Positions 2,290 to 26,058 of a stretch of 64,000 bases of DNA are shown here, piece by piece. The stretch is taken from positions 6,882,001-6,946,000 of the forward strand of contig NC_060025.1 in the NCBI RefSeq assembly GCF_021134715.1, given 5' to 3'. Under the pieces are notes generated by a model. That model was given only the letters and a program-made list of their open reading frames with translations. It did no database searches and was not told the origin of the DNA. The translations under genes were made by a program, and so were the position numbers. The stretch comes from Daphnia pulex. Taxonomy: Eukaryota > Arthropoda > Branchiopoda > Diplostraca > Daphniidae. How positions within the stretch are numbered: position 1 is the first letter of the stretch; each line of letters starts with the position of its first letter.

Positions 2290-3471
2290 TGATTTTCATT
2301 GACCACCTTATTAACTTCGGAGCGTTATCTTCCGCTGATTTCAACCATCTCAGGGCTTGGTGATCCGTAATAATTACTCTGAAATGTACGTTATGTTTAG
2401 ATAAGATTGAAAATGCTTAACCGCCCAAAAAATTGCTAACGTCTCTCTTACTGTTGTTGAATAATTTCTTTCTGCCTTATTTAATACTCGACTTGCGTAA
2501 GCTACGGGGTGTTTCCTACCCTCCTCATCCAGTTGACTTAGCACCGCTCCAATCGCCCTGTTGAATGCATATGTTGCTAAGATGAAATTCTCTATCGAAA
2601 TCTGGGTATTTAAGGATAGGTTTTGTTCCTAATAATCGCTTTAATTTGTTAAAACTCTCTGTTTGTTCCTGTCCCCATTCGAATGGTTGTTTGTCGTGTG
2701 TTAGTTTTATCAGAGGGTGAGCCATCTCCGAATACCCTGGTATGAACTTTCTGTAATAACCGGTCATTCCTAGGAATGATTTGAGTGTCTTCTTGTCGGC
2801 TGGCTCTACAAACTGTAACACTTTGCTGATGTTGTCCTTTTCCGGCTCCAGTCCTGCCTCTGACACTACGCGACCCAGATACCGGAATTGTTTCCTCCGA
2901 ATACTACATTTTTTTTTGTTTTAATTTTAAATTGGCTTTTTTAAGTCGTTCGAAAACCTGTCTCAGATGAATCAGATGGTCCTCGAACGTCTCGCTATAA
3001 ATAATTATGTCATCTAGATATACCAGGCAGTTTTTTTGAAGCAGTCTTCTCAGTGTTTGATCCATTATTCGTTGGAACGTGGATGGCGCATTGCATAACC
3101 CAAATGGAAGGACTTTAAACTGAAATTGTCCTCTCGATGTTAAGAACGCTGTCTTGTCCCTGTCTTTTTTTTTACCTCCACCTGCCAATATCCTGCTTTT
3201 AGATCCAATAATGTGAAGAATTTTCTTTCCCTAATGCATCGAGTGTCTCGGAGATGTTCGGTATCGGGTATCTATCTTTCCTAGTCACTTTGTTCAACCT
3301 CCTGGAGTCTATCACCAATCTTTTTGTCCCATCTTTCTTGTCTATTAGGAGCAACGGCGCCGCCCAAGGTGAATTAGCTTCCTTTATAATGCCTTGCTCT
3401 ATCATGACGTCCAGCTGTCTGTCCAACTCTCCCTGGCTCGCGTATGGAACTCGATATGTCCGTTTATACAC
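2290..3471 (-). pseudogene. Reverse transcriptase-RNase H remnant of pol
   Basis: The fingers region has SPWAAPLLLIDKKDGTKR followed by LVIDSRRLNKVTRKDRYPIP. After a frame break comes RGQFQFKVLPFGLCNAPST and the catalytic CLVYLDDIIIYS. After a second break comes the connection segment SFLGMTGYYRKFIPGYSE, then RNase H with LDEEGRKHPVAYASRVLNKA and ITDHQALRWLK. All are hallmark Ty3/gypsy motifs. Breaks near 3190 and 2880 make it non-functional. Confidence 0.9.
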
Positions 3472-3521
3472 TGGATTTGCCCTTTCGGTATTGATCTCTT
3501 GTGATACGAGTCAAGTTCGCC

Positions 3522-4316
3522 CTAGATCGTTGTCTCCTTTTGAGAAGATCGTATCAAATTACTCACAAGTTCAGACACCGTTTTCTTTTTCCCTAGATCC
3601 TTTATTTCCTCTAGGTTACATAGCATTACTGCTGTAGCCTGCTCTTGATTCTTTTCCGCATTCTCCTTCACCCTTAAATTTTTTATCATTGCGCACGTCT
3701 CCCTCGTGCTCCTTGATTTGATTTCCTCTACTGCCCCCAATCTCCCTATTCTGATATTTGCTACCAACTTACACGGTTGGTCTGTGTCGTTCACCATGAT
3801 TACTGGGAATTTCCGCCGATTTATTCTCTTGTTCAACAGCGCCGGTTCCACGTAACACCACTCTTCATCTTGCTCTAAGTTCTCTATTACTGTTTCCTTT
3901 CCTGCCTCGAATATCTCGTCCGTCCACGCGAATACTATCTTTCTGCTTTGTGGGGGAATCGTCGTATTGCACGCTAGTCGAACGTCACCTCCTTGAGGTG
4001 ACTGCTCTTCTCTCCCTGCTATTAGCATGATATACTGCCCCCTACTATACCCTACCATTTCCCCGTTAATCGTAACTTCCCGTTGACCGAGGTCAACGAT
4101 CGCCTTATTTTTCTCGAGAAAATCTGTCCATAATATGATGTCATATGGCATGCTTTTCACTACGTAATATTGGTGTCTAATTACTTGAGTTTTCCCTAAT
4201 TGGATGTCTTCTTCGCTTCGTCCTAGTACTTCCAGCTCGCTACTGTCTACTCCTACTAATGACAGGCTCCCTTCTAACTTCTTCTCTCGTTCTCTCATCC
4301 ACAACCTATCTGACAT
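3522..4316 (-). pseudogene. Retropepsin-like / linker region of pol
   Basis: This 264-residue open frame lies between the zinc knuckles and the reverse transcriptase, where gypsy-type elements keep the aspartic protease. The stretch VVKSMPYDIILWTDFLEKNK matches the pattern expected after the protease active site (family consensus has an ILG-like D-FL motif). The N-terminal half with the catalytic D[ST]G is not in this frame and seems lost or shifted. The assignment rests on position and pattern rather than on catalytic residues. Confidence 0.6.
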
Positions 4317-4341
4317 TAAGTGGCTTCCGAACCCGAGTCTA

Positions 4342-5640
4342 CTAATGCCTCCACATATTATTCTTGAAAAATATTCTTACAATTGGTAATTTCCTACATA
4401 TTGCGTTATTTGGTATGCTATTGATCTGGAGAGGGCTGTTACCTATCTTCCCACTTTCCCGTAGGCCTCTGTCTATGGGTGCTCGGCGTTTTTTTTCCTC
4501 CCTTTCCGCTTGTATCTTTCTTAAATAACAATCGTCTTCCGAGTGTCCCATTCTTCCGCATTTTTCCCATCCGCACTTCACCTCCGGCTTCGGAGTTGTT
4601 CTCCCAAACTTCTTAACAAAACAAGACTCCTCTGTATTTCGACTATCCCCGCATGCCTTACATTTCAGTTTTCTTGTATTCGGGCATTCCCGCGCTCTGT
4701 GGCCTAGCTCCACGCATCCGAAACATTTCCAGTTCTCACCTTGTGTTGCATTATTTTTTTTTTACCTAGGTTTCTCTGCGTATGCTGCTAGTAGACTGTC
4801 TCCTTCCTCTTCTCCTGTATACTCTCTCTCTCTCCTCGTCAACAGTTCTAGTCTTGCGATCGCTTCTTCTATATGCTTTGGTATTTTTTCGTTATCTCCT
4901 CCCTCCAAGTTCTTCCCTTGTCGTCTACTCATCAATACATTTTCCTCTTCCCTTCTGGCCTCCGCAAATGCTTCGTCGAAATTCCCCGGATTCTTGCTGC
5001 ACACCCAGCGTTGGATTTCCCCGTTCAATCCACTTAAAATTGCCTCAACACTGTCATCTGCACCGGTTTCACCTGCATGTAGTCTCCGTACAATCTCATT
5101 GCGAAAACTTTTAATATTTGTGCGTAGTCCACAACTAGTTCCCCTGGTGCCTGCTGACATTGCTGGAACTTGCTCTCTAACACTCCTTCATTCTCCCCCT
5201 GGAATCTTTGGAGGAACATTTCTTTGAAACCTTCAAAATCCTCCACGTTCTCCCCTTCCACTCTAAAAAAACTGCGCCGCCTTCCCCGCCAATCTGTAGT
5301 GAATTGTTTCCAACAGTTCCTCCTGCTCATCAAAAAATCTCTCGAAAATCAGACCAACTTTCCACAACCACTCCTCTACATCGTCCGTACCGTCTCCCGT
5401 GAAAACAGGCACCCTTTTTAAATTTTCAAAAGCATCTATTCTCCCCTCTTATTCGTGCTCTACCCTCCGTTCTGACCGCCTTTTTGCTTCGTCGCCCCCT
5501 TCTGTCCCGCTCCTGCCTCGTCCTCGTCCTCGCCCCCTCTCCTCGTTTGTTTTGTTTTCCCTACTACATTCTTCCCATTCGCCCATGATAGTATTGCCCC
5601 CACAGATAGAAACATTAATATCTTCTTTAGACATTTTCAC
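4342..5640 (-). pseudogene. gag remnant with CCHC zinc knuckles
   Basis: The start at 5640 gives a short acidic and Arg/Gly-rich N-terminus, followed after frame breaks by a capsid-like domain (FKEMFLQRFQGE, then SVEAILSGLNGEIQRWV). Near 4720-4530 are Cys/His clusters: GHRAREC, CKACGDSRNTEESC and CGWEKCGRMGHSEDDC, the last being a zinc knuckle. These features fit a gypsy-type Gag that packages element RNA. At least two frameshifts separate the pieces, so no intact protein can be made. Confidence 0.8.
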
Positions 5641-18840: not shown

Positions 18841-20389
18841 TAGAAAGCCTTAAGAGAAAACTAAACAAACTATGTAAAATTCACAGAGAGTCAAAGTCTC
18901 AACAAGAACTTTTGTTCGTACAGTATAGGTACCCTAACATCCAAGCGTTACAACAATTGACCGGAGCGCTCTCATGCGGGGTTTTCTGAAACAGTTTTTT
19001 TTTTCTTTATGAAATTGAAGTCCGAAATTTCAAATCTTTTTCAAATAAACATGTAAAGTTTTATTTAAAATATTTTCGCGTTGTTTAGTTAATATAAAAC
19101 AAGACAACATATGACGTATGACAACCGCCATGAGAACAATTCTTTTTATTTAATTTAAAATTTTTACAAGTTGGTCCACAGATAAAGTTAGACTAGAAAC
19201 TTGTCCTCAACGCCTCTGGACGTAAGTATCAGTACTAAATATTCGAAATGACAAATCCAAAAAGCGCACTTCTTATCAATGAGTGTTTTGTCTCGTTTTC
19301 TCTGTTCTCAGCTTGTTCACAGTTTCACACAAATGATCAATCATGGATTCATAAATGATTTTATCACAATATTTAATGCGTGCTAAAATTACAGTCAAAT
19401 TTTTAAAATATTACGATGGCTTGTGTGTCGAATTAAACTAAAAATATTAGGCTATGCGTCAAAAATAAATTATCGATATATGTGTTGATCGATATACATA
19501 TCATTTAGCTTAAGTGCTACGGGGTACTCTTCCCGCTTTATTTTTGTCAGACTTTCAGTTTTGTGCATCCTTCGAATTGTGCCTCGCGCCTAGCGTCGCC
19601 AGTTTCCCTCCGGGACTTTGGGGTTTAATTTAAATGAGGGAGTGTGCATAATAAATTTTGGGGGGTTAGGGGTAAGGTTATATATATAGGTTAAGTATTT
19701 TTTCGCGCAATGTAGGGTGATTGCTCGGCGCTTATTATAGACATCATTTTGGGGTGTAACTGTAATCCAGGAGCACGCCTAACTTTTTTTTTTGTTCGGT
19801 TACCTTTTGACCAGTTTAACAACTTGTATCATTTGGATCCCTATCATGTTGGAATGGAAGCCATTTAATGCAACTTTAAAGCCGGAATATCTAGGCAACA
19901 AATTTTGTTTTTTAATGAAGAGAGGGCAGAATTTTTTTCAACTCGCTTCAACTCACTTATAGATTAGCGAAGTGTGATTTATGGATCAACTTAGTTGAGT
20001 AGCCTAGTGAATTTTTCCACGAATAACCAATTCCATTCGTCATCATTTTTCTACAATCATTTCTCATGACCAAAATGTTAAGCTGTATGTACCGCTTTTC
20101 TATTCGAAACTCGGTGTCGTTGGATAGCTGTCACAAGCAGGGGTATGGAGAGAAATCGAACAAAGTTTTTATATATCAAACCGCGATTGGTTGTATTAAA
20201 TTCCAACTCTTAACACGTAGTTATACAATGCCAGGAATGAGGGAGCAACGCAAATTAAGTAAAGCCATGATTTTAAGAAAATAAGACTAGTTTTATCATA
20301 TGAATGCCCTCATTTCAGTTCGCAAAAACGCTGAAATAAGAACAATTGAGAGAAACTGAGTTTGTGTTTTATAACAGTAATTGACACGT
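18841..20389. other. Intergenic DNA
   Basis: No gene found. The left 150 bp probably contain the SWIB gene promoter. The remainder is AT-rich, with a purine-rich GGGGGGTTAGGGG patch near 19660-19675. A 72-codon ORF at 20066-20284 has no recognisable motif. Confidence 0.5.
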
Positions 20390-23300
20390 TTAATCGCCTT
20401 TCTCCAGCGAAAAGCATTTTCATCATTCTCCAATGGCGGCATTTCTTCTTCGGCTTCTTCGGCTTCCTCACCACCAGCAGGGACATCATCTTCATCGATA
20501 CACAAACCCAATTTGATCATGCGGTAGATGCGAGATCAGAAGCATGGACGGCTAGCTCTTCCAGGGAAAAACCAGATGACAGCAGAGGTTTCAAACAGCA
20601 ACATGAAGAAATCCTTGACGGCTTTATCGTTTTTGTCAGCCTCTGCTTTGACGCGCAGGGCTTCGACGATGGGATGGTCGGAGTTGATTTCCAAGTGCTT
20701 CTTGGCGGCCATGTAATCCATGGTGAAGGTATCCCTCAAAGCCTGAGCCTTCATGATACGCTCCATGTTGGCTGTCCAGCCGTACTGGGAGGTGACGAAC
20801 TGACGATAATCTGGGAGACTCGACCAACGGTTGGAAATAACGACCATCCCGACTTTCTTGTCCGTTTCTTGTGGCAAAAATAAAAGGATTTCAATATGGA
20901 ACATAGAAAAGTGTCATGAAACTGAAATACCCGATGATGGAGAACATGTAGACTAGGATGAGAGCCAAAACGGCAGTGAGAACGATGGACCTGCCGTTTC
21001 GCGTCACTGAGCGGATTACGTTGAGCAGCGTCTCCTCGCGGTAGACGACGTCAAACAAAAGGACGGAGAAGAAGAACGGATGGGTGCTGAGTCCGAGGAA
21101 GCAAAAGATGAGGTAAACGACGTGGTAGACAATCTCCGTGTCCGTGCAGATTTGTCTGACGCTCCGCTGAAATGTCCCGGCGTTGCCCATGATGCTCAGA
21201 AAATGGACGCCCTTCAACACTACCGTGTCGGTGCCAAGGAGCATCACTGTGGGTTAAGGGCCGGCTGAGCAAATAAGCCGGAGGATGACTGTCATGACGA
21301 GAGTCCTAATACCCGACGGTTTGGTTAACGTGATGGCCACAGCGGCGGATAGGAGGATGACGGCCCAGATGAGACCTGAATTAATAAAGGGAAAAGATCG
21401 TTGAAAAGATGGAAATGGGAGTCACTGTTTAAAGGTGTGCAGACCTGACAGGTGAGTGCGAGGATCAGGAGCCGGTCCGTCAGTGTCAAACGGGTAAAAG
21501 AAGGCGACAATCAGGTTGATAATGACGGCCAAATTGAAGAGGATTTGACTCCAGATGGACATGTGCGAGCTGTCCCAAAAGAGGAACGGCTGTCTGCGCA
21601 ATTTCTTCTACCATTTCATCTCGTCAAACATGTCGTCGACTCCTTCGAAAAAGGCGGCCACTTTCGATCCCTGGTCGTCGCGCTCCGCCGTGTGGAAGAC
21701 GCACACTTTCGTGTCGTTGATCAAATACTCGCACATTTCCGCTCCGGAATGGGGAAGACAATCTGCTCCATCGTCCGGTCGTGACGGACAATTTATTTCG
21801 ATTTGCGCCGTGTGATTGGCGTAGTACTGCAGGGCCGCATCACCGCTGACTCCGTCCACTGGCGGCGGTTTCATCAGGGCGGCCAATTCTTTGTTGTGCT
21901 GCGCCAACTGGTGTCACAAAATGTAAATGTTGTGGCCAACTGGCGACTTCTTTCGGATTGGCCGCCTCTTCTCCACCGACCAACTTTTGGTGATAGGCTT
22001 TGCAGGCGACGTCCACCAATTGGCGAGGATTCATGTTGTACAGGATCCTTTCCACGTTCTCGCTGTCGCCACGACTCTCCATGACGGCCAGCAACAACTT
22101 GGAGGCGTTGTTTTTCAACTCCAAAACAAGATCCATTCTCCGTTGTCCTAAATAATTGATCAAATAATTATTAGAATCAAATTAATGAAAGGAAATTGTT
22201 ACCTAATGGATTGATGTCGGTAAGAAGAAGAGCCGTGATGATGTCCAGTCCATTCGACTCGTGAGTGGCGATGCAGTTTTGGTTTTCGTGACAAGGTCCT
22301 TGGCAATATTCCGTCAATGTTTCCAGGGTTTGGTTGATGAGGGCGACGTTGTGCTCATTAATGTAGAGGCCGAGCAGACCCAGTTCGCCCGTCGTCGATC
22401 CGCAAATGCAGTCGAGGAACATGAGTGTCGTCTGACACTAAATTGTAACTTTTTTTGTTGGACTGGGCCCGCAAAAAGTTCTGCAGGTCTCGATTGTGAT
22501 TCTCACACAGCAACTGCAGGAAGCGGAAGACGGGCAGCATTACCAGAACCTTAGCCGACAACTTGGACTCCATGTCCGAATCAGTTGCCGTAGTTAACTA
22601 TAAGGGCGAATTCAATTTATTTTTTACAAGAATTTTAATAAAATCACGAATTCAAGTTTTGTTGTACCGATTTGGGTTGTTGTTGTTGTCTCACCAAGTT
22701 CTCCAGCGTCAAGTTGACACTACTCAACGTCGTTGTAGTGGTAGTCGAATCATCCAACCTGGAGCTGTTCCACGAGTCACTGTAAGGATCCATGCGCTCC
22801 CCTACAGTGACGTTACCGTTTGAAGCTCTTGTGGACATCATGCGTTGATGTTTCATCTTCATGTCGTACGGGAAATGATCCTTCATTTCATGGGAATGGT
22901 CCTTGAGCTTGTTGTTACCCGCCGAGGCCATTTCGATCGTGTTGACCGACATGGTGGACTTGATTTCCGCTTGCGACTCTCTGACTTTGTCGTGGAACAC
23001 CTTGAAGAAGATGGCGCTCGTCTCGGCCGACTGCAATTTCGTGTAGAGACTCCGCTGGATGACGGGGTTGCCGCCTTCCAGCAGAGCGATGCCCAACTGG
23101 ACCGCTTCCATGAAAACGTTGGGCAACAACGACGACTTCATGACCAATTCGGCCACCAAATCAGAGATGCCTTCTCGGTCCAGGTACACTTGCACCTCGG
23201 GCAAACACATTTCACCTCGCGACAGGAGACGTCCTCCAGGTCCGTGGGTTGTCAGCGATGACGATTGTCCCACACAAACTCCAACACCAGTACCACCAGA

Positions 23301-25206
23301 TAATGTTGAATGAATTCCAGCACCAGAGATTCCGCTTCCGCCATAGAGCTCGGTCTTTTTAGAACTATGAGAGGCTGGTTTGGCAAAGTAGCGAACTAAA
23401 AGATTCTTTCTCAATGCGTCTCCCTGGTAATAATTGATTCATTAAGGTAAATTTATTGCCTCAAATTTTAATAGAATGATTACCTTTTCGCCATTGTGAA
23501 CATCGAAATTCATCATCTGACGTAAGGTGTTGAGAACTTGGATGCAAAGTTTTTCCTCCTTGTCCTCCAGCAATCGTTCGGTGTGTTTAATCAATCTTCA
23601 ATAAAAATAAATTCCAAGTAAGATCAATGGTTAACATAAATACAAGTCAAATTTACCTGCGAATGAATCCGCCATTGTCACACTTTTTCTGTGCTTCCGT
23701 GCCAGGCTGGAAAAGGTATTCCGGTCGGTAAAGGACATCGACGATAACGGAAGACTTGGCTTGAACCAAAGAATGCAGTTGAGCCTCTAACAAGACGACA
23801 ATGTCTTACAGGCCATCAATAATTGTCCGATCAAAGCGGACGCTCAACTGTGACTGCGAAGATTCCCGACTGAAGACGCTACGATCGAAATATTTTGCTG
23901 GCCTTGCTGGCCCCCAAGTGTAGGGCTGGTTTGTTGAAGAGCGAAGTCCAAGATGTCCTTTATGATTTTGCAGAGACCCTCGAATTTGGCCTTGTCGCTC
24001 TCGCGTTTCTTGGTTTCTCCATCATCTTCGGGGAGTTCCAGACCCTCCTTGGTGACGGAGACGAGCTGCTTGCCATCGTATTCCTTGAGCTGCTGGACGA
24101 CGTACTCATCAATGGGCTCAGTCATGAAGATGACCTCCAATCCGCGCTTCTTGCCACGCTCGACGAATGAGGAGTTGCTGACTTGTTCTCTGTTGTCACC
24201 AGTGATGTAGTAGATGTGTTTCTGGTTCTCCTTCATGCGGGAAACGTATTCCTTGAAGGAAACCTGGTTTTCTCCAGAGGCGGAAGTGTGGAAACGGATG
24301 AGGTCAGCGATCTTCTTGCGTAGGTAGAATCTTCATGGACTCCCAACTTCAGGTTCTTGCTGAATTGTTCGTAAAACTTTCTTGTCGTTCTCATGCTTCT
24401 TTTCCTCCTCCTCAGCCTCATCGTCGCTCACTTTCTTGTCGCGCTACTTCTCAACCAATAGCTTGATTGGGTAGCAAATGAACTGTGAGTTCTTCTTGAC
24501 AACCTCCTTGACTTTCTTCTCCTCCAGGTAATCCATCGGATAATCCTGTCAATAATGAAAAAAAAAATACAGGCATGAGCATATTGGAAATTATGCCAAT
24601 GAAGACAAAGAACATACCTTCAAGTGGAGGATAATCTTGGTTCCTCTACCCATGGGTTCTCTGTGATCAGGCTTGATGGTGAAAGAACCACCAGCTGACG
24701 ATTCCCAAACATACTGCTCATCATCATTGTGCTTGGAATGAACTGTCACCTTGTCGGCAACCAGGTAAGCAGAGTAGGAACCCACACTAAACTGACCAAT
24801 CATGGAGATGTCAGCTCCGGCAGAGAGGGCTTCCATGAAAGCTTTAGTTCCAGACTTGGCAATAGTACCCAAGTTGTTAACCAAATCAGCCTTGATCATG
24901 CCGATACCACTAAAGAGAAACAGAACAGTCAAATTCGTGTTCAAATAGGAGGAACTAAATTTCTCAACTTACGTATCCATGAGAGTGAGTCAGCATTCTT
25001 GTTGGGGACAATCTTGATTTTAAGGTCCTTACCGCTGTCCAACTTGCTTGGGTCAGTCAGGGATTCATAACGGATCTTGACTAGGGCATTTGAGGAGTTG
25101 GAGATCGACTATAGAAGGTGTTGATAATCAAGCTCATAAGCTGAGCAATCTTGGCCTGGGATGTGAAAGTCTCAGCTTCGTCTTCCATTTGAACTTCTCC
25201 AGGCAT
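20390..25206 (-). pseudogene. Hsp90: hsp90 (cytosolic, hsp83 type) pseudogene split by an insertion
   Basis: The minus strand begins [20 protein letters not shown] at 25206 and ends near 20390 in a degenerate MEEVD tail. The copy is dead. The NKEIFLREL segment with the catalytic Glu is deleted near 25110 and the frame shifts near 24985. The ATP-lid glycines in GQFGVGFYSAYLV have become [17 protein letters not shown] follows LLVEK near 24445. Most of the middle domain (roughly 140 residues) is missing between the acidic linker and KKFYEQFSKNLKLG, and there are frame shifts at about 24320 and 20550. One intron-like gap (about 24545-24615) remains, so it is a DNA-level copy rather than a processed one. 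Bases 20864-23945 are foreign (IP3 receptor). Confidence 0.9.
20864..23945 (-). pseudogene. Itpr: Inositol 1,4,5-trisphosphate receptor fragment inserted in hsp90 pseudogene
   Basis: This 3.1-kb minus-strand segment encodes the C-terminal regulatory and transmembrane part of an IP3 receptor. Recognisable pieces include [74 protein letters not shown] and VYREETLLNVIRSVTRNGRS with TAVLALILVYMFSIIG. Introns are retained (for example about 23424-23484 and 22151-22202). It stops at the donor after FSIIG, before the pore, so the channel pore is missing. Nonsense changes at 23806-23808 and 21608-21610 (KW*KKLRR, where Gln is expected) and a frame shift near 22436 show it is non-functional. Both edges abut GTCC (20860-20863 and 23946-23949). 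Confidence 0.9.
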
Positions 25207-25536
25207 CTAAAAAGGAAAAGGAAAATATTTCAGTAAGAAATGTTTGTCAATTGTGGTAGATCACACTCAAAAATAGAAATTCTACATATATCTATGGACT
25301 TGAGGCATATCAAAAAATGTGTAAATAACCAATTTGTTTGTCTAAACCAGTACAGTAGTAAAACTTACTTTGCTTTAAAACGTAAACAAACAAACCGGAC
25401 GCTTTTCTGTTCACGTTTGGTGGGGATCTACATGTATACAAGGCCGCCGGGCAGTCGTAAAAATTGCCACCAAATTCGCTTCTTGTTAGGCCTGCAAACT
25501 ATAGCTTTTGGGTTGACACACATCAAGCCGGGAAAG
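25207..25536. other. Upstream flank of the hsp90 pseudogene
   Basis: No gene was found. It may contain a degraded 5' UTR or intron of the hsp90 copy; the ORF at 25240-25539 shows no family motif. Confidence 0.4.
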
Positions 25537-25950
25537 TGAGCCCGTTCGACTTTGAATCGCTGTGTAAAAAATACAGCTATTAGTATATCTTCATGTGATC
25601 CATTTTGAAGACCTTTCTTTGTTTAATCTCTTTCATACAAAAATTTTCGTGATTTGTAAGACATTTACGTAAATTTTGTGTTAATGTTTAGTGGCGTTTT
25701 GAATTTTGCAGTTTGAATTGCAGCGGTGGCGTTTCGAAACTGAGCCCCGTTTGACTTAGAATCGCTGTTTTAAAAAATAAATCTATTATATCTTCGTAAA
25801 ATGTGATCCATTTTAAAGAGATTTCTTTGTTTAATCAAATGCCTACAAAAATTTGCGTGATTGTTGTCACAATTACGTAAATTTAAGTGTCTAATTACTG
25901 CAATTGAATTTTGCAGTTTGAATTGCAGCGGTGGCGTGTCAAAACTGAGC
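25537..25950 (+). repeat. Two tandem copies of a ~204-bp unit upstream of BAP18
   Basis: Copy 1 starts at TGAGCCCGTTCGAC (25537) and copy 2 at TGAGCCCCGTTTGAC (25741), with a third start at 25946. Shared landmarks include TGTGATCCATTTT, TTTCTTTGTTTAATC and TTTTGCAGTTTGAATTGCAG. Copies differ by scattered substitutions and small indels. The array ends about 110 bp before the BAP18 start codon, so it may contain promoter elements. That role is inference. Confidence 0.85.
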
Positions 25951-26058
25951 CTCCTTCGACTGTGACTAGAATCCCTACGGGAAATTATGTTTTTTTATAC
26001 CAAATAATTGACTTTGTGGTGAATTTTCTGGGTTAGTTGTTTGTAAAAGTGCACAAGA

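Follow-up and report, generated by a model that had tools for sequence, protein, structure and literature searches.

Canonical Helitrons carry TC at the 5' end and CTRR at the 3' end, and insert at an A-T target. Helentrons and HINEs, as characterised in the sections of PMC4067079 that we draw on throughout, have palindromic subterminal inverted repeats of which the 5' one is at the terminus and the 3' one is set back, with at least 11 bp of identical subterminal repeat as a family trait and a palindrome near the 3' end. They leave the target unchanged, insert at a T-rich or TT site and have an autonomous partner that encodes both Rep/helicase and an AP endonuclease. The captured fragments described in those sections are few. 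For gene capture by Helitrons a filler-DNA model has been put forward (PMC6544945, likewise used in part). Here we describe an element in a 64,000-nucleotide stretch of the Daphnia pulex genome (C9:6882001-6946000, referred to as the window; coordinates without a contig name are window positions) that carries sequence from the hsp90 gene with a segment of the IP3 receptor gene (ITPR) inside it. It is highly probable that a non-autonomous element with Helentron/Helitron2-like ends captured hsp90 and ITPR, probably in that order, and was subsequently dispersed, after which its copies decayed.

Ends, copies and insertion sites of the element

The 133.19-Mb assembly (13 contigs) was searched with window positions 20390-25206 as query, which gave at least 67 matches, 40 of the 54 candidates having been scored. 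Three full copies in addition to that in the window were found (99.7, 99.2 and 98.9% identity over about 6.41 kb), and the homology among the four stops at the same end bases, beyond which the flanks are unrelated. This defines a whole, non-autonomous Helentron/Helitron2-like element of 6,408 bp at 19577..25984 with its 5' end at 25984 and its 3' end at 19577; the element, its arms, repeats and cargo are all on the minus strand. An earlier note on this stretch had placed an ITPR segment at 20864..23945 and regarded it as a single local insertion without transposon ends. Neither the single local event nor the lack of transposon ends held, since the element ends were found 1.3 and 2.0 kb outside these coordinates and the seams between the two genes are present in many copies (left seam at 14 places, right seam at four).

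The homology between copies ends at TTTCCC... on the 5' side and at ...CACAA on the 3' side. The 5' palindromic subterminal repeat TTTCCCGTAGGGATTCT (25968..25984) is identical in the Rep-bearing locus L036, and its predicted fold is not clearly above that of shuffled sequences. The 3' repeat AGTCCCGGAGGGAAACT (19601..19617), read from the copy comparisons, lies 24 nt inside the 3' end and is an imperfect inverse of the 5' repeat, with TTTCCC and GGGA common to both and a different loop. The 5' arm (25378..25984) and the 3' arm (19577..19671) are about 91% and 82% common, respectively, with L035, an element that bears other cargo. An inner left arm (19672..20152) is present in part or whole in the hsp90-carrying copies.

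The 25 copies examined were grouped into four full copies (class A, the window included), nine class B and seven class C copies that are internally deleted and retain ITPR, and three class D and two class E copies with hsp90 only, so that ITPR is present in 20/25 and hsp90 alone in 5/25. This set is exclusive of at least four further copies from the genome search (C3:390127, C10:8506436, C5:145463 and C5:156392) and of the ITPR fragments at C8:5.364M, C2:6.834M, C2:6.852M, C4:5.135M, C8:11.88M, C11:3.44M, C11:3.87M and C5:0.611M. Two of the hsp90-only copies are inverted relative to each other and lie about 4.5 kb apart (C10:7758012-7768047).

The junctions with host DNA are highly uniform. 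An A was found at position -2 in 24/24 distinct 5' flanks and a T at position +1 in 23/23 distinct 3' flanks, in a set that includes L035 and in which L036 was counted for the 5' side only. In the loci scanned, the host A close to the 5' end and the T at the 3' end are invariant, which would be in line with a canonical Helitron; such an element is nevertheless improbable, as the homology ends at TTTCCC... and ...CACAA and palindromic repeats are located near both ends. One copy is nested inside another, and when its flanks are joined they match the uninterrupted site at 50/50 bases in L013, L019 and L021 (3 of 11 loci) and at 47-49 of 50 bases in L003, L014, L020, L022 and L028. The empty site is thus exact and no target duplication was made at the nested insertion. 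It is very improbable that the copies arose by segmental duplication of an hsp90-ITPR fusion instead of by transposition: some equal-scoring pairs, which may be larger duplicates (the inverted pair at C10:7.758/7.767 Mb and the pair at C2:6.834/6.852 Mb), would agree with it, whereas the common end base of full copies with unrelated flanks, the constant junction bases in the loci scanned and the exact empty site of the nested copy argue against it.

With Helentrons and HINEs the element has in common the palindromic subterminal repeats, terminal at the 5' end and set back at the 3' end, the unmodified target with a T at the junction, and the capture of gene fragments, which in a Culex Helentron are two histone fragments present in eight copies (PMC4067079). 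The differences are that the 3' repeat lies closer to the end than the approximately 38-60 nt given for mite families, that the 3' palindrome is weak, and that the cargo, about 5 kb long, retains introns and combines DNA of two genes, one of them lying within the other. As far as the published description goes, the element fits Helentrons/HINEs better than canonical Helitrons. The Daphnia pulex Helitron families HeliDaphA/NA (PMC2884549) are likewise of the Helitron class and probably from the same species; the main text of that paper is without the terms 'captured' and 'gene fragment'.

Parent genes and the seams between them

The exons of the native hsp90 gene (L009, C10:16.24 Mb) are open, and the gene contains no ITPR sequence. 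Those of the native ITPR gene (L010, C7:12.20 Mb) are long and open and encode Ins145_P3_rec, MIR, RIH, RIH_assoc and Ion_trans domains; these two genes are the parents of the cargo. Alignment to these genes of the same species, as the earlier note had proposed, confirmed the seam and, together with the domain matches, bore out its central observation that hsp90 is interrupted by IP3-receptor exons and introns on the same strand. The note was also right that both partners are decayed and, with introns kept in the ITPR cargo, that the capture occurred at the DNA level.

The N-terminal and middle coding part of hsp90, with introns, is located at 23946..25347, as identified from the alignment to the native gene and a PF00183 match, and the similarity may extend to about 25372, an apparent splice donor of the 5' UTR (untranslated region) judged by eye. 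The C-terminal coding part with 3' flank, which also matches PF00183, is located at 20153..20863 and is 88.3% identical to L009. An internal deletion seam at 24378..24392, seen in the alignment to L009, marks the loss of about 593 bp that are present in the native gene (L009 3038-3631). L009 aligns to 20153-20863 and 23946-24392, and the L009 coordinates of these two pieces overlap by four bases (4074-4077, GTCC); therefore no hsp90 sequence was lost at the ITPR seam. The ITPR cargo at 20872..23948 extends from before the RIH_assoc region to the transmembrane exons, with exons and introns, and is 94.4% identical to L010 over 3,103 columns. In the frames of the window, HSP90 (PF00183) was matched in 23844-24332 and 20536-20913 and Ion_trans in 20891-21253, and the same scan gave no match in the frames 22644-23438 and 24591-24968; RIH_assoc was found in the window cargo as two pieces, and also in other copies. 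A second, decayed copy of hsp90 (L012, C5:4.857 Mb), in which no element arm was matched, retains the stretch that is missing from the window element.

At the left seam, an 8-nt filler GTTTCTTG (20864..20871) stands between the two genes. It is present in neither parent at that place and is unchanged in all 14 copies in which the left seam is retained. The hsp90 sequence reads ...CTTGTCC directly before GTTTCTTG, and the TTTCTTG of the filler also begins 11 nt upstream, within the hsp90 part, which suggests that the filler may have been locally templated. At the right seam (23946..23949, GTCC) the ITPR sequence ...GAAGTC(A) joins the hsp90 sequence (CTT)GTCCAAG, so that GTC is common to both parents and the last C is from hsp90 alone, native ITPR reading GTCA. 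The two genes are not in the same frame at this seam, where hsp90 reads FALQQTSP and ITPR reads SLFNKPAL, one base off; an in-frame fusion protein is ruled out at the right seam, the one covered by the frame test.

Both seams were searched for in the genome with up to three mismatches allowed, a threshold at which the backward-pattern controls gave 0 hits. The left seam was found at 14 places (12 exact matches, two differing at one base). The right seam was found at four places, all exact. The 14 left-seam places correspond to four class A, nine class B and one class C copy, all of which have the left arm, and the six other class C copies are deleted across this seam. A local assembly chimera, which had been considered in the earlier note, is ruled out because the seam recurs on several contigs, where its flanks differ.

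The earlier note had further read GTCC at both edges as the sign of either a target duplication or a microhomology-mediated insertion. The letters are as stated, and the ITPR segment is where it was placed except for its edges: it begins at 20872, after the filler that had gone unnoticed, and at the right it shares GTC with hsp90. Since GTC is common to both parents at the right edge and the left edge has the 8-nt filler, a 4-bp target duplication is not needed and the repeat is weak evidence for one, while the microhomology alternative agrees with the shared GTC. That ITPR DNA was inserted once, long ago, into a local hsp90 pseudogene and left a 4-bp target duplication, to which the GTCC at both edges would point, is hardly credible, given the same left seam at 14 places, the precise element ends, the filler at the left and a right edge at which three of the four bases are compatible with ITPR as well.

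Order of capture and a possible helper

The synonymous divergence between the window copy and its parents was higher for hsp90 (dS 0.205, 32 of 179 sites, in exon 4; dS 0.127, 5 of 43 sites, in exon 1) than for the ITPR exons (dS approximately 0.075, 33.5 of 465 sites). Compared with the ITPR exons, with 33.5 rounded to 33, the difference was significant both for hsp90 exon 4 (Fisher's exact test, p = 1.1e-4) and for exons 1 and 4 together (p = 2.2e-4). The higher divergence at coding sites suggests an earlier capture of hsp90, and from the sequences it is likely that hsp90 was captured first and ITPR second. The alternative, in which the ITPR piece first entered a genomic duplicate of hsp90 and the element later captured the finished chimera, appears unlikely. 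The seam alone is silent on where the break occurred, and L012 is an example of a decayed hsp90 copy without a matching element arm; on the other hand, each of the 14 left-seam places belongs to an element copy with arms, no armless seam was found within three mismatches, and the coding divergence from the two parents differs.

If the captures took place within the element, a genomic piece of host hsp90 would have been acquired between its two arms, and genomic DNA of the host IP3-receptor gene, 3.1 kb in length, would later have been taken in at a break in the hsp90 exon sequence. This break may have been repaired by copying ITPR DNA, leaving the 8-nt filler on one side and the 3-nt microhomology on the other, and the edges fit filler-DNA or template-switch capture within the element. 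The chimeric element would then have been copied to many sites by Rep/helicase acting in trans, with insertion at T-containing sites and without target duplication, and its copies, presumably without function, would have lost parts of the cargo through internal deletion and decay. The hallmarks of gene capture, namely parent genes elsewhere, cargo between conserved ends and many copies, were all found. Likenesses to filler-DNA capture by Helitrons, in the part of PMC6544945 used here, are the position of the cargo internal to conserved ends, the short junction homologies at the source and the stepwise acquisition; here, in contrast, there is an 8-nt filler at one edge and the sequence that received the second piece had itself been captured from a gene.

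A helper for such transposition may have left relics at two loci. L036 (C2:12.22 Mb; C2:12219297 onward) has a frame with a Rep domain (PF14214) and, about 2.8 kb upstream of it, a 19-nt match to the element 5' end; the 17 nt of the 5' repeat agree exactly with those of the element, and DUF6570 is also found behind the shared 5' repeat. At C7:11.74 Mb (C7:11736265 onward) the 14-base 5'-end pattern is present at an equal distance from a nearly identical Rep frame. Relatives of the Rep frame in L036 were searched for and checked by eye against the end matches, and only these two loci were seen to have both no more than about 5 kb apart and with orientations that match. No helicase or endonuclease was seen among the L036 frames listed, a dedicated search for either not having been made. 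It is possible that both loci are relics of the helper.

Several results weigh against the proposed history or parts of it. The hsp90 3' flank and an ITPR intron stretch are equally diverged from the parents (15/227 and 13/207, p = 1.0), which leaves separate capture times unsupported, although the comparison is weak in that the ITPR stretch apparently includes a short exon. Trees do not place the hsp90-only copies (5/25) either before or after the ITPR capture, and these copies are without the stretch that would tell whether they are older. The empty-site comparison reached only 34/50 bases, ungapped, in L016, L017 and L018 (3 of 11 loci), with a 4-nt insertion nearby in L017 and L018 and only one side of the interrupted copy present in L016. 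None of the three terminal stretches, including a short GCG...CGC stem near the 3' end, folds clearly better than shuffled sequences. With one mismatch allowed, the 14-base 5'-end pattern gave 86 matches, compared to 19 in the backward control, so that some of its matches are due to chance. Finally, no complete helper was found, L036 being 8.8 kb long with no helicase or 3' repeat seen.

The copies may also have exchanged sequence after dispersal. Compared to the window, the copy at C5:2.07 Mb has 21 differences over 388 sites in 21177-21576, against 0-4 in each of the 15 remaining full bins, and the copy at C10:0.05 Mb also shows raised differences (3-7 per bin) in 21177-22776. This mosaic ITPR stretch (21177-22776) in full copies suggests exchange between copies.

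A related element and implications

The arms are also found around other cargo. L035 (C10:14041617-14046710) has about 600 bp of 5' arm and 95 bp of 3' arm in common with the window element, and its cargo shows 75-76% similarity to a NUP205-like gene (L040, PF11894) and 82% similarity to the locus L041, whose frame resembles WDR33, a WD40 gene. An L035-type element is also present at C2:10227909-10232866, and L035 represents a second two-gene chimera. The frames of L035 itself gave no Pfam or PDB match, and the identity of its cargo is known only via the similar loci L040 and L041. Since the same arms enclose different cargo, the cargo is flanked by conserved arms; this makes capture by end bypass unlikely and favours the filler-DNA model (PMC6544945, in the part used). 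A tentative and rather doubtful extension would be that this arm family repeatedly builds two-gene chimeras, with one hsp90 and ITPR branch and one branch with the NUP205-like and WD40 genes, where the second gene may enter at breaks in earlier cargo as the element replicates, with filler templated locally and copies exchanging sequence afterwards.

Two other features of the window are outside the element. The 5' end of the element (25984) lies 75 nt upstream of an ATG (26059) of a plus-strand gene that resembles BAP18, and an effect of the element on the promoter of this gene is possible. Minus-strand frames at 2525-5187 resemble Gypsy-type gag/pol pieces.

In the open-licence literature searched, no published record of the hsp90-ITPR element was found. 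We regard the element, probably of the rolling-circle type, as a well-preserved and unusually complete example of the known capture of host genes by such elements. The capture mechanism of rolling-circle elements has been argued mainly from junctions. Here, one assembly holds the open parents, both junctions, dispersed copies that share the junction, derivatives with deletions, an empty site that is exact and a related element whose cargo differs, and because all these traces are found together, the order of capture and the mode of repair can be tested across related species or strains. If two-gene chimeras are in fact built repeatedly, the family would be a natural record of the steps of capture. 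The results also serve as a warning for annotators and for copy-number studies, given that many of the hsp90 and ITPR fragments in the Daphnia pulex genome are transposon cargo.

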